NCBI GenBank assembly: GCA_020850355.1
Contig: JADZEX010000022.1
Coordinates: forward strand, 1-64,000
Length of the DNA stretch: 64,000 bases
Direction of reading: 5' to 3'
Origin: Fimbriimonadaceae bacterium
Lineage (GTDB): Bacteria > Armatimonadota > UBA10988
Under the pieces are notes generated by a model. That model was not told where the DNA came from and made no database searches. It worked only from the letters and a program-made list of their open reading frames with translations. Of the stretch, positions 50,408 to 60,094 are shown piece after piece (position 1 is the stretch's first letter; each line of letters opens with the position of its first letter). Made by a program: the position numbers and the translations under genes.

Positions 50408-50788
50408 ATGGTGGGAAGTCGAGCGCTCCGATGGTGCCGCAGATTGGCCGTGCTGGCCGTCTGGCTGGTGCTGGCAGGCGGTCATCGTGACTGCCTCTGC
50501 ACCGTGCTGCCCGATCCCCACGGCCACCGCTGCTCGCCGCACGACCACCTCGACCACTGCCACGACCAGCCCTGCGAAGCCCACTGTGGCGAGACCTGCT
50601 GCCAGGCCCTGGTGCGCCCGGTCGCCGCGGCCGCCGACGTGCTGGCAGCCCTGCCGGAGCCGCCGGCCCTGGCGCTGCCGACCGTGGCCACGCCGCTGAC
50701 GGCTCCGGCCGCCACGGGCTGGCGCCACCGCGCAGGCGGCCGCCAGCGCCTGCGCGCCCCACCACACCCCACCACGCCCGACTGCTGA
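50408..50788 (+). CDS. Small exported Cys/His-rich protein of the metal-efflux operon
   Basis: 126 residues. A signal sequence (residues 1-~24, RRLAVLAVWLVLAGG) is followed within 50 residues by a dense cluster of potential metal ligands: CLC, HGHRCSPHDHLDHCHD, then C-E-A-H-C-G-E-T-C-C. The C-terminal ~60 residues are Ala/Pro-rich with no structure evident. No family was recognised. It is the first gene before the CzcCBA-like pump, about 100 bases upstream of the outer-membrane factor, so a periplasmic metal-binding or metal-sensing role is a reasonable inference. Its coding status is supported by the ATG, the signal peptide and the operon context, but not by homology. Confidence 0.68.
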   Translation: MVGSRALRWCRRLAVLAVWLVLAGGHRDCLCTVLPDPHGHRCSPHDHLDHCHDQPCEAHCGETCCQALVRPVAAAADVLAALPEPPALALPTVATPLTAPAATGWRHRAGGRQRLRAPPHPTTPDC

Positions 50789-50885
50789 CGCCGGCGACGC
50801 TGCCCCCCGCTCGGACCGCTGCGGCTCGAGCCCGACCCAGCAGCGCGGCTCGCCGGCCCGATCACCGTTGGTGGGGAGCCCCCGA

Positions 50886-52232
50886 ATGGTACGACCTCGG
50901 CCGGCGCACGCCCGCGCTTGCGCGGCTTCACAATCCTCTTGGTTCGGCTGGTTGGCCGGCTGCCTGGCGGCCGCCGCGGCCCTGGCGGCTGATGCGCCGG
51001 CCCCGCTGGCGGAGCCGGACGTGGTGCAGCGGGTCTGGGCCACCGACCCGCGGGTGACCGCCGCCGACCGCGCCGTGCTGGCCGCCCGTGCCGCGGCGCG
51101 GGCGGTCGGGGCCTGGAGCGGACCGACCTTGACGGTGGCGGCGCTCTACACCGACCTGCGCGGACCAGACTACGAGGCCGAGCTCGGCCAGAACCTGTTC
51201 GACCCGCTGCGCGGCGCCGCGGTGCAGTCGGCCCGGGCGGCGCTGGCCGTCGCCGCGGGTGAGCGCCAGTTGACGGCCTGGGAGGTCGGTTGGGAGGCCC
51301 GCGAGACGTTCGCCGCGGTGGTCGCGGCCGACCGCGTGACCGAGGTCTGGCGGGCCGACCTGGCGCTCCTGGAGGCGCTGCGCAACGCCGCCCAGCGGGC
51401 CCGCGACATCGGTGAACGCCCCGGCATCGATGTCCAGCGGGCCGAGTTGGAGGTCAGCCGCGGAGCCCTCGCCCTGGCCGCGCAACTGGCCGGCCGGCAG
51501 CAGGCGGCCGTCGCGCTGGCCACCTTGCTGGGCGAGCCCCCCGACGCCGCGCTGGTCTGCCGCGCCAGCTCCTGGCCGTCGGAGGTGCCGCCGGTCGACG
51601 CGCTGCTGCGCCGCCTGCCGGACCATCCGCGCCTGCGGCTGGCCCGCCTGCAGGTCGCGCTGGCCGGTCGGCTGGTCGGCGCCAGCCGAGCGCAGCAGTG
51701 GCCCAGTCTGGAGCTGTCCGGGTTCCGCGAAGACCAGGAGCACGGCCTGCGGCTGTCGCTCAGCCTGCCGCTGTCACCCGCGCGCACTGCGGCCGAGGTC
51801 CGCGCGGCGCAAGCCGCCGGGGCCGTCGCCGCGGCGCAACAGGAGGCCGCGGAGCGGGCGGCCCGCAACAGCTTGCACCGCGCCCGCCTGGCGCTGGTCG
51901 CCGCGCTGGCCCAGCAGCGTCAGCAGAGCGAGACCGTGTTGGCGCGCTCGCAACGGCTGCTGGAGCTGGCCCAAGTGGGTTACGAGTTGGGCCAGGCGAC
52001 GCTGCTCGAAGTGCTCGACGCGAAGCGCCTGCTGACCGCCGCCCGGCTGGAACAGGCCGAGCTGGCGACGGCCGTGGCGACCGGCTGGCTGACGCTGCAG
52101 GCCGCTGCTGGCGAGTCGCCGGCCAGCGTGACCCTCGCCGCGCCGCCGCCGAACATGCCACCGCCGGTCCTCGGTCCGCCGTTGCCGACCGCCACCGTGC
52201 TGCCGACCGCTGGTCTGGGAGCCGCCCGATGA
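50886..52232 (+). CDS. TolC/CzcC-type outer-membrane efflux factor
   Basis: 448 residues with an N-terminal signal (residues ~15-36). The body is two copies of the outer-membrane-efflux repeat of long amphipathic helices: RAALAVAAGERQLTAWEVGWEAR and QLLELAQVGYELGQATLLEVLDAKR-like segments are diagnostic of CzcC/CusC-type proteins (YxxGxxxLLEVLDA). It forms the trimeric channel that the pump exports through. ATG 50886 follows GGGGAG by six bases. The stop overlaps the adaptor start (ATGA). The operon order outer factor, adaptor, pump is that of czcCBA. Confidence 0.9.
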   Translation: MVRPRPAHARACAASQSSWFGWLAGCLAAAAALAADAPAPLAEPDVVQRVWATDPRVTAADRAVLAARAAARAVGAWSGPTLTVAALYTDLRGPDYEAELGQNLFDPLRGAAVQSARAALAVAAGERQLTAWEVGWEARETFAAVVAADRVTEVWRADLALLEALRNAAQRARDIGERPGIDVQRAELEVSRGALALAAQLAGRQQAAVALATLLGEPPDAALVCRASSWPSEVPPVDALLRRLPDHPRLRLARLQVALAGRLVGASRAQQWPSLELSGFREDQEHGLRLSLSLPLSPARTAAEVRAAQAAGAVAAAQQEAAERAARNSLHRARLALVAALAQQRQQSETVLARSQRLLELAQVGYELGQATLLEVLDAKRLLTAARLEQAELATAVATGWLTLQAAAGESPASVTLAAPPPNMPPPVLGPPLPTATVLPTAGLGAAR

Positions 52233-54676
52233 ACTACCCCTGCCGCTACGCGCTGCTGCTGCTGGCCGCCCTCAGCAGCGCCCCCACCGCGCTCCGGGCG
52301 CAGCCGCCGGCCGACCACGCCGATCACCCGGCCGTCGCGGCCGACGGCCACGCCGAGCATTCCGAGCCCGCCGCGCACCACGAGGAGGCCGACCACGACT
52401 CAGCGCACCAGGCCGCGGCCAACGGCGGGCGGCCCGGGTGGCGCTGGCCGCTGGCCGGCGCACTCCTGTTGCTGGCGGCGGCCGCGCCGCCGCTGGCCGC
52501 CCGGCGGGCCCGGCCGACGGTCGGGCGCTGGGTCAGCGGTCTGGCGCTGCTGGCAACTGGCGGCGTGCTGTGGCTGGCGCCGCCGCCAGTCGACCCGGCC
52601 GAGCCCGCCGCCGCGGACGAGCATGCCGGCGAGGCCGCTGCCGAGAGCCCGTTCGTCGAGGTCGACCCGGCAGCGGTTGCCGCACTCGGACTGCGCACCG
52701 CGCTGGTGGCGCCGGCCGACCTCGTCACGACGCTCGCGGCGACTGGCCGCCTGCTGGCCCTGGAGTCCCACCAGGCCCACCTCGGCTCACGGGTGCCGGG
52801 CCGCCTGACCAGCGACACGGTGCGGGTTGGCGAACGTGTCGCCGCGGGCCAGGTGGTGGCCACGCTGGACAGCGTCGACGCCGCCCAGGCCGCGGCGGCC
52901 TGGCGTGAGGCCGGCGCGCAACTGGCCGCGGCGCAACGCAACCTGGCAGTGCGGCGGCGGCTGGTGGCCAGCGGGGCCCTGACCCAGGGACCGCTGGAGG
53001 AGGCGCGCCGGCAGTTGGCCGCGGCGCGCACCGAGCAGGCCAAGGCCGGCTCGGCGTTGGCCCAGGCGCGCAACGAACTGGACGCTGCGCGCGCCGAACA
53101 GGAGCGCACGACCCATCTGGCCGGCCGCGGCGCCTTCACCACGGCCGCCGAGGAAGAGGCTCGACAACGGTTCGCCGAGACCGAGCAGGCGCTCGCCGCG
53201 GCCCGCACCGCCGTCGCCGAAGCCGCCGCCGAGATCGGCGACGCGGAAGGCGAGGTGGCCCTGGCCCGCCAGAAGCTGGCCTCGGCGAGCGCGCTGGCCG
53301 AGCGCACCGGCCGGCTGGTGGCGACCGGCGAACTGGACCGGGCGCCGCTGGAACAGGCCCAGAACGCGCTCGCCGCGGCGCGCTCGCAGCAGCAGCAGAG
53401 CGCGGCGGCGCTGGACCAGGCGGAGCGCTCCGCGCAACGCGGCGAGGAGCTGTACCGCGCGGAGCTGCTGGCGTTGAACGACCTGGAAGCCCGCCGGGCG
53501 GCGCTTCGCGAGCGGCAGGCGCAGCACCAGGAAGCGACCGCGGCGGTTGCCACGGCGCAGACGGCGCTGCGGCGGCAGGAGCAGATCAGCCACGCCCAGA
53601 TGGCTGGCGGGCGGGCCCAGCAGGAGGCCGACAACAGCGTGGCCGAGGCGCGCCGGGAGCTGGCGGCTGCGGAAGCCCGCCTGGCCAAACGCCAGGCGCG
53701 CCAGGAGGTGGTCTCCGCGGCGCTGACCCCGGCCCAGGCGGCGGTCAACGCGGCCCGTGGCGCGATGCAGCGGGAGCAGGCCCTGGCCGGTGATGGCACC
53801 CGCGCCCAAAGCGCCTCAGCCGCCGCCCGGTTGCGGGTGCAGCAGGCCGAGCGGACCGTCGACGGCACGCAGGGCGAGGCCAGCGAGGCGGCCCGGCAGG
53901 TCGCCCTGGCGACCACCGCAGTGGCCCGCGAGCAGCGTCTCGCCCGCGAGCAGGTGCGCGGCCGCGAGCTGCTGCTGGACGCCGAGCAGCAGGTCCAGGC
54001 GGCCGGCATCGCGCAGCGCAACGCCGCCGAGATGCTCCAGATCCTGGGGGCCTCGACCGGCGCGGCGGCGCGCGGGGCCAGCCGGCTGCAGATCCCCATC
54101 CGCACCCCGCTGGCGGGCCTGGTGACCGCGCTGGAGGCGAGCGTCGGCGAGGCCGTCGGTGCCGAGCAGGACCTGCTGACAGTGGTCGATCTGAGCGAGC
54201 TGTACGTCGAGGCCGACGTGCCGGAGCGGGACCTGCCGCAGGTGGCCGAGGGGCAACTGGTGCGGGTCACGGTGCGGGCCTTCCCGGCCGAGACCTTCCT
54301 CGGCAGCGTGGTCAGCCTGAGTGGCCAGCTCGACCCGGAGACCCGCGCGGCGCACGTCCGGGCCCGCCTGCAGAACCCCGCCTGGCGGCTGCGTCCGGAG
54401 ATGTTTGCCGAAGTCGGCTTCGTCACGGCGCAAAGCGGCCGGGTGCTCCACGTGCCGGCCGAGGCGGTGCAGGAAGTGGAGGGCCGCGCCGTGGTCTTTG
54501 TGCAGCTCACCCCCTTGCGGTACGAGACCCGCCCCGTGACGCTCGGGCCGCGCAGCGCCCAGCGGGTCGCGGTGACGGCCGGGCTGCACGCCGGCGAGAA
54601 CGTCGTGATCGCCGGCAGCTACCTGCTGAAGTCGGAACGCCTGAAGGGCGAACTCGGCCACGGTCACGCGCACTGA
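52229..54676 (+). CDS. CzcB-like RND efflux adaptor with giant repeated helical hairpin
   Basis: 815 residues, about twice the ~400 of a usual RND adaptor. Order: signal peptide; a His/Glu-rich stretch (residues 29-60); two membrane helices (~73-91, ~100-116); the first lipoyl half (~178-215); helical coiled coil (~216-610); the second lipoyl half (~618-655); and the beta-barrel and membrane-proximal domains, ending HGHAH. The coil contains seven tip-like motifs (L/I-x3-G-x9-A). Their leading residues are L245, L297, L363, L408, I453, L519 and L571, so the spacings are 52, 66, 45, 45, 66 and 52. Normal adaptors have one such tip, which contacts the outer-membrane factor. The histidine stretches suggest metal binding. 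It is coupled to the czcC-like and czcA-like genes. Confidence 0.9.
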   Translation: MNYPCRYALLLLAALSSAPTALRAQPPADHADHPAVAADGHAEHSEPAAHHEEADHDSAHQAAANGGRPGWRWPLAGALLLLAAAAPPLAARRARPTVGRWVSGLALLATGGVLWLAPPPVDPAEPAAADEHAGEAAAESPFVEVDPAAVAALGLRTALVAPADLVTTLAATGRLLALESHQAHLGSRVPGRLTSDTVRVGERVAAGQVVATLDSVDAAQAAAAWREAGAQLAAAQRNLAVRRRLVASGALTQGPLEEARRQLAAARTEQAKAGSALAQARNELDAARAEQERTTHLAGRGAFTTAAEEEARQRFAETEQALAAARTAVAEAAAEIGDAEGEVALARQKLASASALAERTGRLVATGELDRAPLEQAQNALAAARSQQQQSAAALDQAERSAQRGEELYRAELLALNDLEARRAALRERQAQHQEATAAVATAQTALRRQEQISHAQMAGGRAQQEADNSVAEARRELAAAEARLAKRQARQEVVSAALTPAQAAVNAARGAMQREQALAGDGTRAQSASAAARLRVQQAERTVDGTQGEASEAARQVALATTAVAREQRLAREQVRGRELLLDAEQQVQAAGIAQRNAAEMLQILGASTGAAARGASRLQIPIRTPLAGLVTALEASVGEAVGAEQDLLTVVDLSELYVEADVPERDLPQVAEGQLVRVTVRAFPAETFLGSVVSLSGQLDPETRAAHVRARLQNPAWRLRPEMFAEVGFVTAQSGRVLHVPAEAVQEVEGRAVVFVQLTPLRYETRPVTLGPRSAQRVAVTAGLHAGENVVIAGSYLLKSERLKGELGHGHAH

Positions 54677-54694: not shown

Positions 54695-57600
54695 ATGATC
54701 GAGCGCTTGGTCCGCGCCGCCCTGGAGCAGCGCGGCGTGGTGCTGCTGGGCAGCGCCATGTTGGTGGCGCTGGGCCTGCTGGCTGCCAGTCGGCTGCCGC
54801 TGGATGCCGTCCCCGATGTCACCAACGTGCAGGTTCAGGTCAACACCGAGGTCGCCGGGATGGGGCCGGTGGAGGTCGAGAAGCTGGTCACCGTGCCGAT
54901 CGAGACGGCACTCTCCGGGCTGCCCGACGTCGCCGAGGTGCGGTCGCTCTCGAAGTACGGCCTGTCGCAGGTGACGGTGGTCTTCCACGACCAGGTCGAC
55001 ATCTACTTCGCCCGCCAGTTGGTCGGCGAACGGCTCCAGGCCGCACGGGAGGAGTTGCCTGGCCAGCTCGACCTGAACCCGACGATGAGCCCGGTCTCGA
55101 CCGGCCTCGGCGAGGTCTACCAGTACACCCTGGTGCGCGACCCGGCGGTGCCGCCGGCGGCGATGATCCGGGCGGTGCAGCGCCAGGTCGCCGGCTTCGA
55201 CCCGGGCCAGCCGGACGACCCGGCGACGCTCGAACTGGCCGAGCTGATGGCCCTCCGCGCGGTCCAGGACTGGATCGTCCGCCGGCAGTTGCTGCGCGTG
55301 CCCGGCGTGGCCGAGGTCAACGCCTTCGGCGGGCATGTCCGGCAGTACCAGGTCTGGCTCGACCCACAGCGACTGCTGGCTCATGACCTGACCATCGGCG
55401 ATGTCCTGGAGGCGCTCGAACGCAACAACGCGAACGCGGGCGGCGCCTACATCGAGAAGGGTGGCGAGGCGCAGGTGGTCCGCGGCATCGGGCTGGTGCA
55501 ACGGGTCGAGGATCTCGAGGCCATCGTCCTGCGGGCGGTCCACGGCACGCCGATCCACCTCCACGACGTGGCCACCGTGGTGTTCGACGGTGAAGTCCGG
55601 ATGGGCGCCACGACGCGCGACGGCGAGGGCGAGCAGGTCGCTGGGATCGTCATGACGCTGCTCGGGGCCAACGCCCGGACCACCGTCGCCGCCCTCAAGG
55701 AGCAACTGCGCGAGGTCGGCAAGTCGCTCCCGGCGGGCGTCCGGATTGAGCCCTACTACGACCGTCAGGAGTTGGTCGACCGGACCGTCCGGACCGCCTT
55801 CCGCAACCTTCTGGAGGGCGGCATTCTGGTGGTGGTGGTGCTCTACCTGGTGCTCGGCAGCCTCCGCGGCAGCCTGATTGTGGCGGCGGTGATCCCCCTG
55901 GCAATGCTCGGCGCCGTGGTGCTGATGGTGCAGGCCAAGATCAGTGGCAACCTGATGAGCCTCGGGGCGCTCGACTTCGGCATCCTGGTCGACGGCGCCG
56001 TGGTGGTGGTCGAGAATGCCCTCCGCCTGTTGCACCAGCCGGGCCCCCGCGACCGGCGGCAGACGGTGCTCGAGGCGACCCTCGAGGTGGCTCGGCCGGT
56101 GGCCTTCGGGATCACCATCATCCTGATCGTCTACCTGCCGATCCTGACCTTGCAGGGGGTCGAAGGCCGGCTCTTCAAGCCCCTCGCCTACACCGTGATG
56201 TTCGCCCTGGTGGGCGCCCTGCTGGTGACCCTGACGACCGTTCCGGTGCTCGCTTCGTACTACCTGCGGCGGTCGGCCGACGCTGGCCGACAGCACGCCG
56301 ACCCCGACGACCCGAGCGGCGAAGACACCCGCCTGGCGGCGGCGGTGCGGCGGGCCTACCGTCCCGCCCTGGCCGCCGCGTTGCGCCGGCCGCGGCCGGT
56401 GGTGGTGGCGGCCCTGGCGATCTTCGGCGCCAGCCTGGTGGTCTTCCCGCGCCTCGGCAGCGTCTTCATCCCGCGCCTCGACGAAGGCTCCTTCGCGCTG
56501 CAGATCATCCGCCTGCCGGCCACCTCGTTGACGCAGTCAGTGGCCATCGACCTGGTCGCGGAGCGGCTGATCAAGGAGCTGCCCGAGGTTCGCACGGTGG
56601 TCGCGCGGGCCGGCCGCGCCGAGATTGCGACCGACCCGATGGGACCCGAGATCAGCGACGTCTTCGTGATGCTGCAGCCGCCCGAGGAGTGGGCGCCGGG
56701 GGTCACCAAGGAGACGATCCGCGAGGCGATCGAACGCCAACTGGAACGCCTGCCCGGCATCAACGTCGGCTACGGCCAGCCGATTGAGCTGCGCGTCAAC
56801 GAGCTGATCTCCGGCGTCCGGAGCGATGTCGCGGTGAAGGTCTTCGGACCCGACTTCGAGGTTCTCGACCGGCTCAGCAACGAGCTGGCCGAGCTGCTGC
56901 GCGGCATCCGCGGCTGTCAGGACCTGCAGGTCGAGCAGACCGCCGGGCTGCCCGGGTTGGACATCAGCATCGACCGCGCGGCGCTGGCTCGGCACGGGCT
57001 GAACGTGGACGATGTCCGCCAACTGATCGAAGTCGGGATCGGCGGGGGCGCCGCCGGTGAAGTGCTGGAGGGCGACGCGCGCTACGCCATCGTGGCGCGG
57101 CTGCAGCCCTCGGCGCGTCGCGACGCCGCGGCGATCGGCGATTTGCTGCTGGCCTCACCGACCGGTGAACGGGTGCCGCTGCGCGATGTGGCGCGGCTGG
57201 AACGCCGCGAGGGGCCGGCCCAGATCAGTCGTGAAGAGGCCTCGCGCCGCAAGGTCGTCGAGTTCAACGTGCGTGGCCGCGACATTGGTTCGTTCGTCAG
57301 CGAGGCCCAGCGCCGGATCGACCAGTCCGTGGCGCTGCCGCCGGGCTACAGCCTGGACTGGGGCGGCCAGTTCGAGAACCTGCAGCGGGCCCGCGCCCGG
57401 CTGCTGGTGGTCGTGCCCGCCGCCCTGGGTCTGATCTTCGGGCTGCTCTACCTGAGCTTCGGCAACGTGCGGCAGGCGCTGCTGATCTTCGCCAATGTGC
57501 CGTTCGCGGTGTCCGGCGGGATCTTCGCGCTGTGGCTGCGTGGCCTGCCCTTCAGCATCTCCGCGGCGATTGGCTTCATCGCCCTGGCCGGCCTGGCGGT

Positions 57601-57913
57601 GCTCAATGGAGTGGTCATGATCAGCTACCTGAACGTCCTGCGCCAGCAGGGCCGGCCGCTCGAAGAGGCCGTCCGCCACGGCGCCGACGTGCGGCTGCGC
57701 CCGATTCTGATGACCGCCCTGACGGCGATGCTGGGCTTCCTGCCGATGGCAGTCTCGCACACGGCCGGGGCCGAGGTGCAGCGGCCGCTGGCGACGGTGG
57801 TGATCGGCGGCCTGGTGACCGCCACTTTGCTGACGCTGTTCGTGCTGCCCGTGCTGTACCGCGCCGCCGAGGCACGCTTCGGGCACGCCGCGGCCGAGCC
57901 CGGCGGAGGTTAG
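54695..57913 (+). CDS. Heavy-metal RND efflux pump, CzcA type
   Basis: A 1072-residue inner-membrane proton antiporter with 12 membrane helices in two repeats. TM4 carries L-D427-F-G-I-L-V-D433-G-A-V-V-V-V-E440-N. This D-x5-D-x6-E set equals CzcA D402/D408/E415 and marks the Zn/Co/Ni/Cd subgroup rather than the Cu/Ag CusA group. FPRLGSVFIPRLDEGSF and the GINVGYGQPIELRVNELISGVRSDVAVKVFG-type porter segments also match. AGGAGG eight bases upstream is the strongest ribosome binding site in the operon. The pump takes metal from periplasm or cytoplasm and passes it through the adaptor to the outer channel. Metal identity is inferred. Confidence 0.95.
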   Translation: MIERLVRAALEQRGVVLLGSAMLVALGLLAASRLPLDAVPDVTNVQVQVNTEVAGMGPVEVEKLVTVPIETALSGLPDVAEVRSLSKYGLSQVTVVFHDQVDIYFARQLVGERLQAAREELPGQLDLNPTMSPVSTGLGEVYQYTLVRDPAVPPAAMIRAVQRQVAGFDPGQPDDPATLELAELMALRAVQDWIVRRQLLRVPGVAEVNAFGGHVRQYQVWLDPQRLLAHDLTIGDVLEALERNNANAGGAYIEKGGEAQVVRGIGLVQRVEDLEAIVLRAVHGTPIHLHDVATVVFDGEVRMGATTRDGEGEQVAGIVMTLLGANARTTVAALKEQLREVGKSLPAGVRIEPYYDRQELVDRTVRTAFRNLLEGGILVVVVLYLVLGSLRGSLIVAAVIPLAMLGAVVLMVQAKISGNLMSLGALDFGILVDGAVVVVENALRLLHQPGPRDRRQTVLEATLEVARPVAFGITIILIVYLPILTLQGVEGRLFKPLAYTVMFALVGALLVTLTTVPVLASYYLRRSADAGRQHADPDDPSGEDTRLAAAVRRAYRPALAAALRRPRPVVVAALAIFGASLVVFPRLGSVFIPRLDEGSFALQIIRLPATSLTQSVAIDLVAERLIKELPEVRTVVARAGRAEIATDPMGPEISDVFVMLQPPEEWAPGVTKETIREAIERQLERLPGINVGYGQPIELRVNELISGVRSDVAVKVFGPDFEVLDRLSNELAELLRGIRGCQDLQVEQTAGLPGLDISIDRAALARHGLNVDDVRQLIEVGIGGGAAGEVLEGDARYAIVARLQPSARRDAAAIGDLLLASPTGERVPLRDVARLERREGPAQISREEASRRKVVEFNVRGRDIGSFVSEAQRRIDQSVALPPGYSLDWGGQFENLQRARARLLVVVPAALGLIFGLLYLSFGNVRQALLIFANVPFAVSGGIFALWLRGLPFSISAAIGFIALAGLAVLNGVVMISYLNVLRQQGRPLEEAVRHGADVRLRPILMTALTAMLGFLPMAVSHTAGAEVQRPLATVVIGGLVTATLLTLFVLPVLYRAAEARFGHAAAEPGGG

Positions 57914-59014: not shown

Positions 59015-60094
59015 TTGCGCACGCTCAGCAGCTACCTGCTCGAAGAGATCACCGCGCCCTTCATCGTGGGGCTGCTGGTGATTCTGGTGATGCTGCTGGG
59101 TGACCAGCTCTACGAACTGCTGAACCTGCTGCTGGCGAAGGACGTGGCGCCGCTGACGGTCGTCCGGCTGCTGCTGTTCATCCTGCCCGACATGATGGTC
59201 GTGGCCTTCCCGCTGGCGACCATCCTGGCGGTCTCCCTGGCGCTTGACCGCCTGGTGCGCGAGCGCGAGTGGGACGCGATGCGGCTGGCCGGTTGCTCGT
59301 TGGGGCGCCTGCTGCTGCCGATCCACTGCTTCGGCCTGGTGGCCGGCGGTCTCGCCTGGTTCGTCTCCGAGCACCTCGCGCCGGCCGCCAAGCGGGAGTA
59401 CGTGGCGATCCACACGCGACTCGCGCTGGCCGATCCGACGGTGGTGATCCAGCCGCAGTCGTGGTTCCAGGCGCCCGGGCGCGACCGCTGGCTGTTCGTC
59501 GACCGGATCGCCGAAACCACCGGCGAGATGTTCGAGGTCGTCGTGTTCAGCGACCTGCAGGGCGACTATCCCTCGGCCCTGTTCGCCCGGCGGGCCCAGC
59601 GGGTTGGCGACAAGCTGGTGCTGCGCGAGGTGGTGCGTCACCTCTGGCGACCCGACGGCAGCCTGCAACGCGAGTCCGAAACGGCGGTCGCCGAGGTGCA
59701 GTTCGCCAGTCTGCTGCCGGAGAGCATCGGCACGCCGTCGACCGCCGGGGAACTCACCTCGGGGCAACTGCGTGAGATGATCCGCCAGTCGGCCGACCAG
59801 GGCGTCGCGCGCACCGACCAGGTGATCGACCTGCATCGCCGCTACGCCGCGCCGGTCGCCTGTTATCTGCTGGCGCTGCTCTGTGTGCCGCTCAACATCC
59901 TGCTCTCGCGGCGCGGCGGATTCATGGGCCTGCTGATCACCTCGGTGCTGGTGGTGGTCTACTTCCTGACCCACGAGATCGGCGTCACCCTGGCGCGCGA
60001 CGGCTTCCTGCAGCGGGTCCCGCTGCTGGGCGTCTGGCTCCAGAACCTGCTCTTCGGCGGTCTGGCGCTGTTGCTGCTACGCCGCTGTCGCTGA
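59015..60094 (+). CDS. LptF/LptG-family permease (YjgP/YjgQ)
   Basis: 359 residues. Six membrane helices lie in two groups of three (residues ~12-110 and ~270-355). The N-terminal SSYLLEEITAPFIVGLLVILVMLLGDQLYEL and the LVREREWDAMRLAGCSLGRLLLP loop are hallmarks of the LPS-export ABC permease. A periplasmic beta-jellyroll of ~150 residues lies between. It moves lipopolysaccharide, or an equivalent envelope lipid, to the outer membrane with LptB ATPase, which is not in the window. The start is TTG 59015, close behind the sugar kinase stop, with GAGG just upstream. A single LptF/G gene suggests either a homodimer or a partner encoded elsewhere. Confidence 0.93.
   Translation: MRTLSSYLLEEITAPFIVGLLVILVMLLGDQLYELLNLLLAKDVAPLTVVRLLLFILPDMMVVAFPLATILAVSLALDRLVREREWDAMRLAGCSLGRLLLPIHCFGLVAGGLAWFVSEHLAPAAKREYVAIHTRLALADPTVVIQPQSWFQAPGRDRWLFVDRIAETTGEMFEVVVFSDLQGDYPSALFARRAQRVGDKLVLREVVRHLWRPDGSLQRESETAVAEVQFASLLPESIGTPSTAGELTSGQLREMIRQSADQGVARTDQVIDLHRRYAAPVACYLLALLCVPLNILLSRRGGFMGLLITSVLVVVYFLTHEIGVTLARDGFLQRVPLLGVWLQNLLFGGLALLLLRRCR

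Follow-up and report, generated by a model that had tools for sequence, protein, structure and literature searches.

The window analyzed here, a 64,000-nucleotide stretch of a contig (G000:C23) from a Fimbriimonadaceae bacterium of the phylum Armatimonadota (genome G000), encodes a periplasmic adaptor protein of the CzcB/CusB type with a predicted giant helical hairpin. The adaptor gene (52229..54676; this and all other features of the window described below lie on the + strand) encodes 815 amino acids (aa). The protein scores 175.6 bits against TIGR01730 (curated cut-off 94.9), which places it among the periplasmic adaptors of resistance-nodulation-division (RND) pumps, and 107.6 bits against PF16576 (HlyD_D23; cut-off 30); its score against TIGR00999, the CzcB/NccB subfamily, is 129.7 bits, below the curated cut-off of 319.3, so that it is filed here only as CzcB-like. 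The gene is flanked by those for a CzcC-like outer-membrane factor (OMF; 50868..52232; 454 aa; PF02321, 91.1 bits, cut-off 22) and for an RND pump of the CusA/CzcA family (54695..57913; 1072 aa; TIGR00914, 1216.3 bits, cut-off 701.45). This is the arrangement of CzcCBA metal efflux operons, and the pump served by this adaptor is a metal efflux pump of the CzcCBA type.

The two lipoyl half-motifs of the adaptor, detected by pattern and profile (residues 188-215, 52790..52873; residues 622-650, 54092..54178, the latter also within the HlyD_D23 match), bound a helical domain of about 410 residues, in agreement with the roughly 400 residues estimated for this open reading frame (ORF) in an initial annotation. 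In the homologues, too, the helical domain is flanked by two half-motifs, so that the hairpin is an insertion between them. Measured from these half-motifs, the first arm of the hairpin comprises residues 215-411 (52871..53461), with helices predicted at 218-250, 254-300, 303-365 and 371-455 in an AlphaFold2 model of low overall confidence, and the second arm comprises residues 419-620 (53483..54088). The β-barrel and membrane-proximal domains follow (residues 650-815, 54176..54673; the TIGR01730 match covers 544-801). The N-terminal region (residues 1-118, 52229..52582), as read from the sequence, contains a signal-like segment, a His-rich stretch and two hydrophobic segments (73-93 and 99-118) of predicted topology; such an N-terminus is atypical among RND adaptors.

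A palindromic series of tip-like motifs

The initial annotation reported seven copies of a motif, [LI]-x3-G-x9-A, resembling the hairpin tip of ordinary adaptors. In its literal form, this motif is present in the helical domain only at residues 245, 297, 363 and 519, and also fits residues 169 and 603, both outside this domain; at the remaining sites, 408, 453 and 571, the Gly position is occupied by E, Q and Q, respectively, and the site at 408 in addition lacks the Ala at +14. The set of seven as a whole is nevertheless recovered by a position-specific tip profile (R at -4, L/I at 0, G/N at +4, S/T at +7, P/E at +10, A at +14) that was seeded from the homologues together with the query and iterated, and was accordingly trained in part on these proteins, albeit not on symmetry. 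It picks out the seven claimed positions and no others, at scores of 16-34 compared to a 99th-percentile maximum of 5.4 for shuffled sequences. Three copies, supported by sequence and profile, precede the center: T1 (residues 245-259, 52961..53005), T2 (297-311, 53117..53161) and T3 (363-377, 53315..53359). The central copy T4 (408-422, 53450..53494) is the probable true tip, given the profile match, its position at the center of symmetry and the model of a relative described below. The copies T5 (453-467, 53585..53629), T6 (519-533, 53783..53827) and T7 (571-585, 53939..53983), for which symmetry adds to sequence and profile, mirror T3, T2 and T1, respectively.

The spacings of the seven copies, 52-66-45-45-66-52, form an exact palindrome about residue 408, as originally proposed, and the mirrored positions each sum to 816. 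The palindrome is preserved in the homologues L005 (57% identical) and L006. When the profile was trained a second time, the copy at 408 fell below the threshold and the rest of the series was still palindromic; the central copy is thus the least well defined one in the query. The RLS tip motif, R-x3-L-x6-S (PMC3391258), is represented in this copy by R404 and L408, with A415 in place of the Ser that is found in both L005 and L006. MacA with a Ser-to-Ala substitution in the tip motif retains some activity. The reading frame of L006 (G002:C518) is disrupted near residue 705 and continues in another frame, either through an assembly error or because the gene is a pseudogene.

A scan of the genome contigs with the query alone detected no relatives; the homologues were retrieved by a whole-genome search. 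They contain three, five or seven copies of the motif, an odd number throughout, and the series is symmetric in all 13 distinct architectures of the survey that the initial annotation had called for. The three-copy spacings are 45-45, 59-59, 66-66, 73-73, 101-101 and 108-108; the five-copy spacings are 45-45-45-45, 52-45-45-52, 52-59-59-52, 70-45-45-71 and 38-82-80-38; and the seven-copy proteins show either 45-52-45-45-52-45 or the spacings of the query, which are shared with L005 and L006. Nearly all spacings in the homologues equal 45+7k. With a mirrored pair counted as agreeing when its members differ by at most 2 residues, all 22 of 22 pairs agree. In 20,000 shuffles of these spacings, the number of agreeing pairs averaged 3.9 and never exceeded 10. 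The outer helices, that is, the distances from the lipoyl domain to the first copy and from the last copy back to it, covary as well: (31, 47-55), (45, 61), (52, 69-71), (66, 82-85) and (87, 102-103). The apparent exceptions (80-52 in L136, 73 only in L140, 146 in L132, 45-45-71 in L108 and 118 in L034) probably arise where copies were overlooked or miscalled or where a contig is truncated, and would be consistent with a symmetric series.

An adaptor of another subfamily, L044 (624-3020 in genome G007), has arms of about 195 residues, each with about three repeats of 42-44 residues that differ in sequence from those described here, and represents a second way to build long arms.

Hairpin length as a property of the genome

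The length of the helical domain, taken as the distance between the automatically detected lipoyl half-motifs, was determined for 220 adaptors. In the query genome, the adaptors, which belong to different subfamilies and have RND or ATP-binding cassette (ABC) partners, have helical domains of 384, 402, 410 (the query), 444 and 445 residues, and those of genome G004 measure 384, 401, 409 and 445 residues. The respective ranges are 328-396 residues in taxon family f3 and 194-266 in f17, compared to 78-84 in ordinary adaptors of the proteobacterial type from outside the phylum (L065, L066 and L068-L070). The query genome, at 384-445 residues, lies at the long extreme. The same genome also encodes a MacA-like adaptor of 319 aa without a hairpin, with only 15 residues between the lipoyl halves (G000:C46:24939-25721; L004, L081).

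Genome identity accounts for 86% of the variance in length (134 adaptors from 24 genomes; permutation p=5e-5), the partial R2 of taxon given subfamily is 0.91, and the length of an adaptor is predicted from the other subfamilies of its own genome with r=0.89. Within one genome, adaptors of different architecture can have helical domains of equal length: the 101-101 series and a 45-45 series flanked by long outer helices each amount to 280 residues in G216, and to 279/280 in G215.

TamB, which bridges the periplasm from one membrane to the other (PMC11341756), provides a yardstick for the envelope. The TamB open frames are 2807 and 2910 aa long in the query family (f1), 2237-2499 in f3, 1997-2261 in f14 and 1511-1538 in f17. 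Across 22 genomes, the median adaptor length rises with that of TamB (Pearson 0.78, Spearman 0.82; 0.91 and 0.89, respectively, without genome G255). At 489-564 aa, the OMF frames of the query family do not depart from the range seen in the other genomes, which makes a general inflation of envelope proteins unlikely.

The stalk of OmpM-type tethers was considered as an independent ruler and rejected: the estimates fit in f1 (~300 Å in both G000 and G004) and in f17 (~160 Å), and fail in f3. These tethers reach only from the cell wall to the outer membrane. The OmpM-like proteins with S-layer homology (SLH) domains in G000 (L292) and G004 (L293) differ in make-up, one stalk combining about 48 collagen-like residues with a coiled coil and the other being coiled coil throughout (~205 residues), and both are nevertheless estimated at ~300 Å. 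In G255, where the adaptors are of ordinary length for the phylum, an OmpM-like protein (L280) contains about 130 collagen-like residues.

A probable single long hairpin and the competing explanations

The geometry of the helical domain can be approached through a three-copy relative, L038, for which an AlphaFold2 model built from 32 sequences of the 45-45 class is confident, with a predicted local distance difference test (pLDDT) score of 85 and 80-97 in the ten-residue blocks of the helices. The modeled helices comprise residues 117-170, 172-214, 220-260 and 262-314; the flanking copies appear as interruptions of a single residue (171 and 261), and the central copy alone forms a five-residue turn (215-219). 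In this model, L038 forms one hairpin interrupted by two joints in register.

By extension, the 410-residue domain of the query would form one antiparallel coiled-coil hairpin with about 200 residues per arm, or ~30 nm at 1.48 Å per residue. Its tip, at the central copy (approximately residues 412-418), would contact the OMF in the manner of AcrA and MacA, and the other six motifs would make up three joints (T1/T7, T2/T6 and T3/T5) at which both arms are interrupted at equal height. Such joints could be former or modified tip motifs that are held in register on both arms. An antiparallel hairpin interrupted in this manner demands that mirrored spacings be equal, and any lengthening has to be matched on both arms, hence the palindrome; the addition of tip-bearing units two at a time would yield an odd copy number and the 45-residue spacing. 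The length of the hairpin may be set by the cell envelope, through selection by periplasm width: a pump has to bridge a wide periplasm to make contact with the outer membrane, and the hairpin-bearing adaptors of a genome should therefore be nearly equal in length. We consider it likely that the query contains such a hairpin, ~30 nm long, with in-register joints and sized to a wide periplasm. The more general proposal, to which we assign somewhat better than even chances, is that adaptor hairpins are molecular rulers, such that all trans-envelope pumps of an Armatimonadota genome, regardless of family, have grown by mirrored additions, mostly of heptads, so as to match the local width of the periplasm together with the TamB lipid bridge, and the width of the envelope can be read from the genome sequence.

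The single enormous hairpin with its tip at 408 and paired features on both arms, one of the two architectures envisaged in the initial annotation, is supported by the mirror symmetry of the family including the first and last helices, by the 101- and 108-residue spacings, for which a folded bundle would have no room, by the L038 model and by the scaling with TamB. Several observations weigh against it. The AlphaFold2 model of the query itself is poor (predicted template modeling score 0.29, pLDDT 61.6) and shows no break at 408 or 571; with 6 sequences, the alignment is too shallow for this model to count as evidence of geometry in either direction. The straight geometry is suggested only by the secondary structure of L038, with its turn at the center, and the seven-copy query is an extrapolation. 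The central copy is the most similar to the tips of MacA and AcrA in 37 of 46 three-copy proteins, in only 4 of 19 five-copy proteins and in 2 of 7 seven-copy proteins, and T3 of the query scores above T4; a general rule by which the most canonical tip would sit at the center was rejected, since it holds only for three-copy proteins. Periplasm width as the cause of arm length is inferred through a single proxy, the length of TamB. At the level of taxon families (n=13), the correlation with TamB drops to r=0.61 (p=0.027; 0.87 without f41), G255 combines a TamB of 2882 aa with adaptors of 234-325 residues, and the OmpM stalks between outer membrane and wall do not follow adaptor length in f3.

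Some of these points also favor the explanation that we consider the least improbable of the competing ones, although still unlikely, namely, that the hairpin is single and long and that its length is inherited or neutral, with the agreement within genomes stemming from ancestry or protein inflation and unrelated to periplasm width. Related genomes share orthologues, the taxon families are few and related (13-15), and the width is represented by a proxy to which G255 and the OmpM of f3 do not conform. Against this explanation stand the agreement between different subfamilies within a genome, the convergence of different architectures on the same total, and OMFs without a twofold change in length.

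A fold akin to that of CusB, a metal adaptor whose hairpin doubles back to form a four-helix bundle (PMC4446572), appears considerably less probable. If the two-helix coiled coil folded back at the joints into a compact bundle, mirrored segments would pair and the domain would be short, and both the palindromes and the turn-like motifs would be explained. However, alternating folding would return the central copy of three- and seven-copy proteins to the vicinity of the lipoyl domain, and beyond it with 101-residue segments; arm length increases with TamB length from genome to genome; and 180-degree turns within the arms are absent from the confident L038 model, where the breaks are of one residue only (the model of the query is poor in this respect as well).

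Slightly less probable again, and not supported by the present results, is the other architecture of the initial annotation, an up-down bundle of eight helices in which each of the seven motifs is a genuine turn and the chain, having passed through an even number of helices, ends up back at the lipoyl domain. Each copy does have the appearance of a turn, with an N-cap box after a helix C-cap (Gly); the copy number is odd throughout; and the poor model of the query contains breaks of 2-6 residues at T1, T2, T3, T5 and T6. Such a bundle, however, gives no reason for the palindromes, its length would not follow that of TamB, its 101- or 108-residue second helices would far overshoot the lipoyl domain after a first helix of 31 residues, and L038 has one-residue breaks at T1 and T3 against the five-residue turn at T2. 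Finally, an accidental palindrome of motif matches in a low-complexity Ala/Glu/Arg coiled coil, for which the biased composition and the literal motif at only four of seven sites could be cited, is refuted by the homologue survey and has a negligible probability in view of the profile scores and the mirrored agreement, both far beyond the shuffled maxima.

What began as a peculiarity of one protein thus becomes a general, testable rule, whereby each tip-like joint has a mirrored partner, both arms lengthen symmetrically, and the length of an adaptor is a feature of the genome rather than of the pump. Should periplasm width be the cause, the envelope geometry of uncultured diderm bacteria could be estimated from sequence, and the extended hairpins would be a natural length series for the matching of tripartite pumps and TamB-type lipid bridges to the inter-membrane distance.

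Known adaptors and neighboring genes

The statement of the initial annotation that neither architecture is known for CzcB/CusB holds in part. That adaptor hairpins can gain heptads in both of their helices, and that the hairpin of CusB is folded back, has been described (reviewed in PMC4446572), whereas an adaptor of the size of the query with repeated in-register joints was found neither in the PDB nor in the open-access literature searched, and no report of adaptor lengths matching within genomes was found in the same literature. The PDB relatives detectable by sequence or fold are all ordinary short-hairpin adaptors, ZneB, AcrA, CusB, MacA and EmrA, with ZneB (3LNN) being the closest. The query shares with the CzcB/ZneB/CusB-type adaptors the lipoyl, barrel and membrane-proximal domains, the OMF-adaptor-RND gene order and the tip-type motif, but has a helical domain of ~410 rather than 78-84 residues and seven tip-like motifs instead of one. 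EmrA of Aquifex aeolicus (4TKO) likewise has a single extended antiparallel hairpin, of 127 Å (PMC4158417), less than half the length predicted for the query, and tip-like joints in its arms have not been reported. Escherichia coli CusB is also a metal adaptor and its hairpin also contains more than two helices, but these fold into a short four-helix bundle, whereas the evidence for the query favors an extended hairpin. In SlpA/OmpM of Deinococcus and Terrabacteria, with a 28 nm stalk and a 30 nm gap between outer membrane and wall (PMC9388160), the length of a coiled coil similarly matches an envelope distance; these proteins, however, are trimeric tethers between outer membrane and wall that are not part of a pump and are not homologous to the query.

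Immediately 5' of the OMF gene, the window contains an ORF of 126 aa (50408-50788, +) with a signal-like start and a dense His/Cys stretch (HRDCLC...HDHLDHCHDQPCEAHCGETCC), possibly encoding a small secreted metal-binding protein. Downstream of the pump gene, the ORF at 59015-60094 (+) reads as an LptF/LptG-like permease, which suggests an outer membrane of the lipopolysaccharide type.

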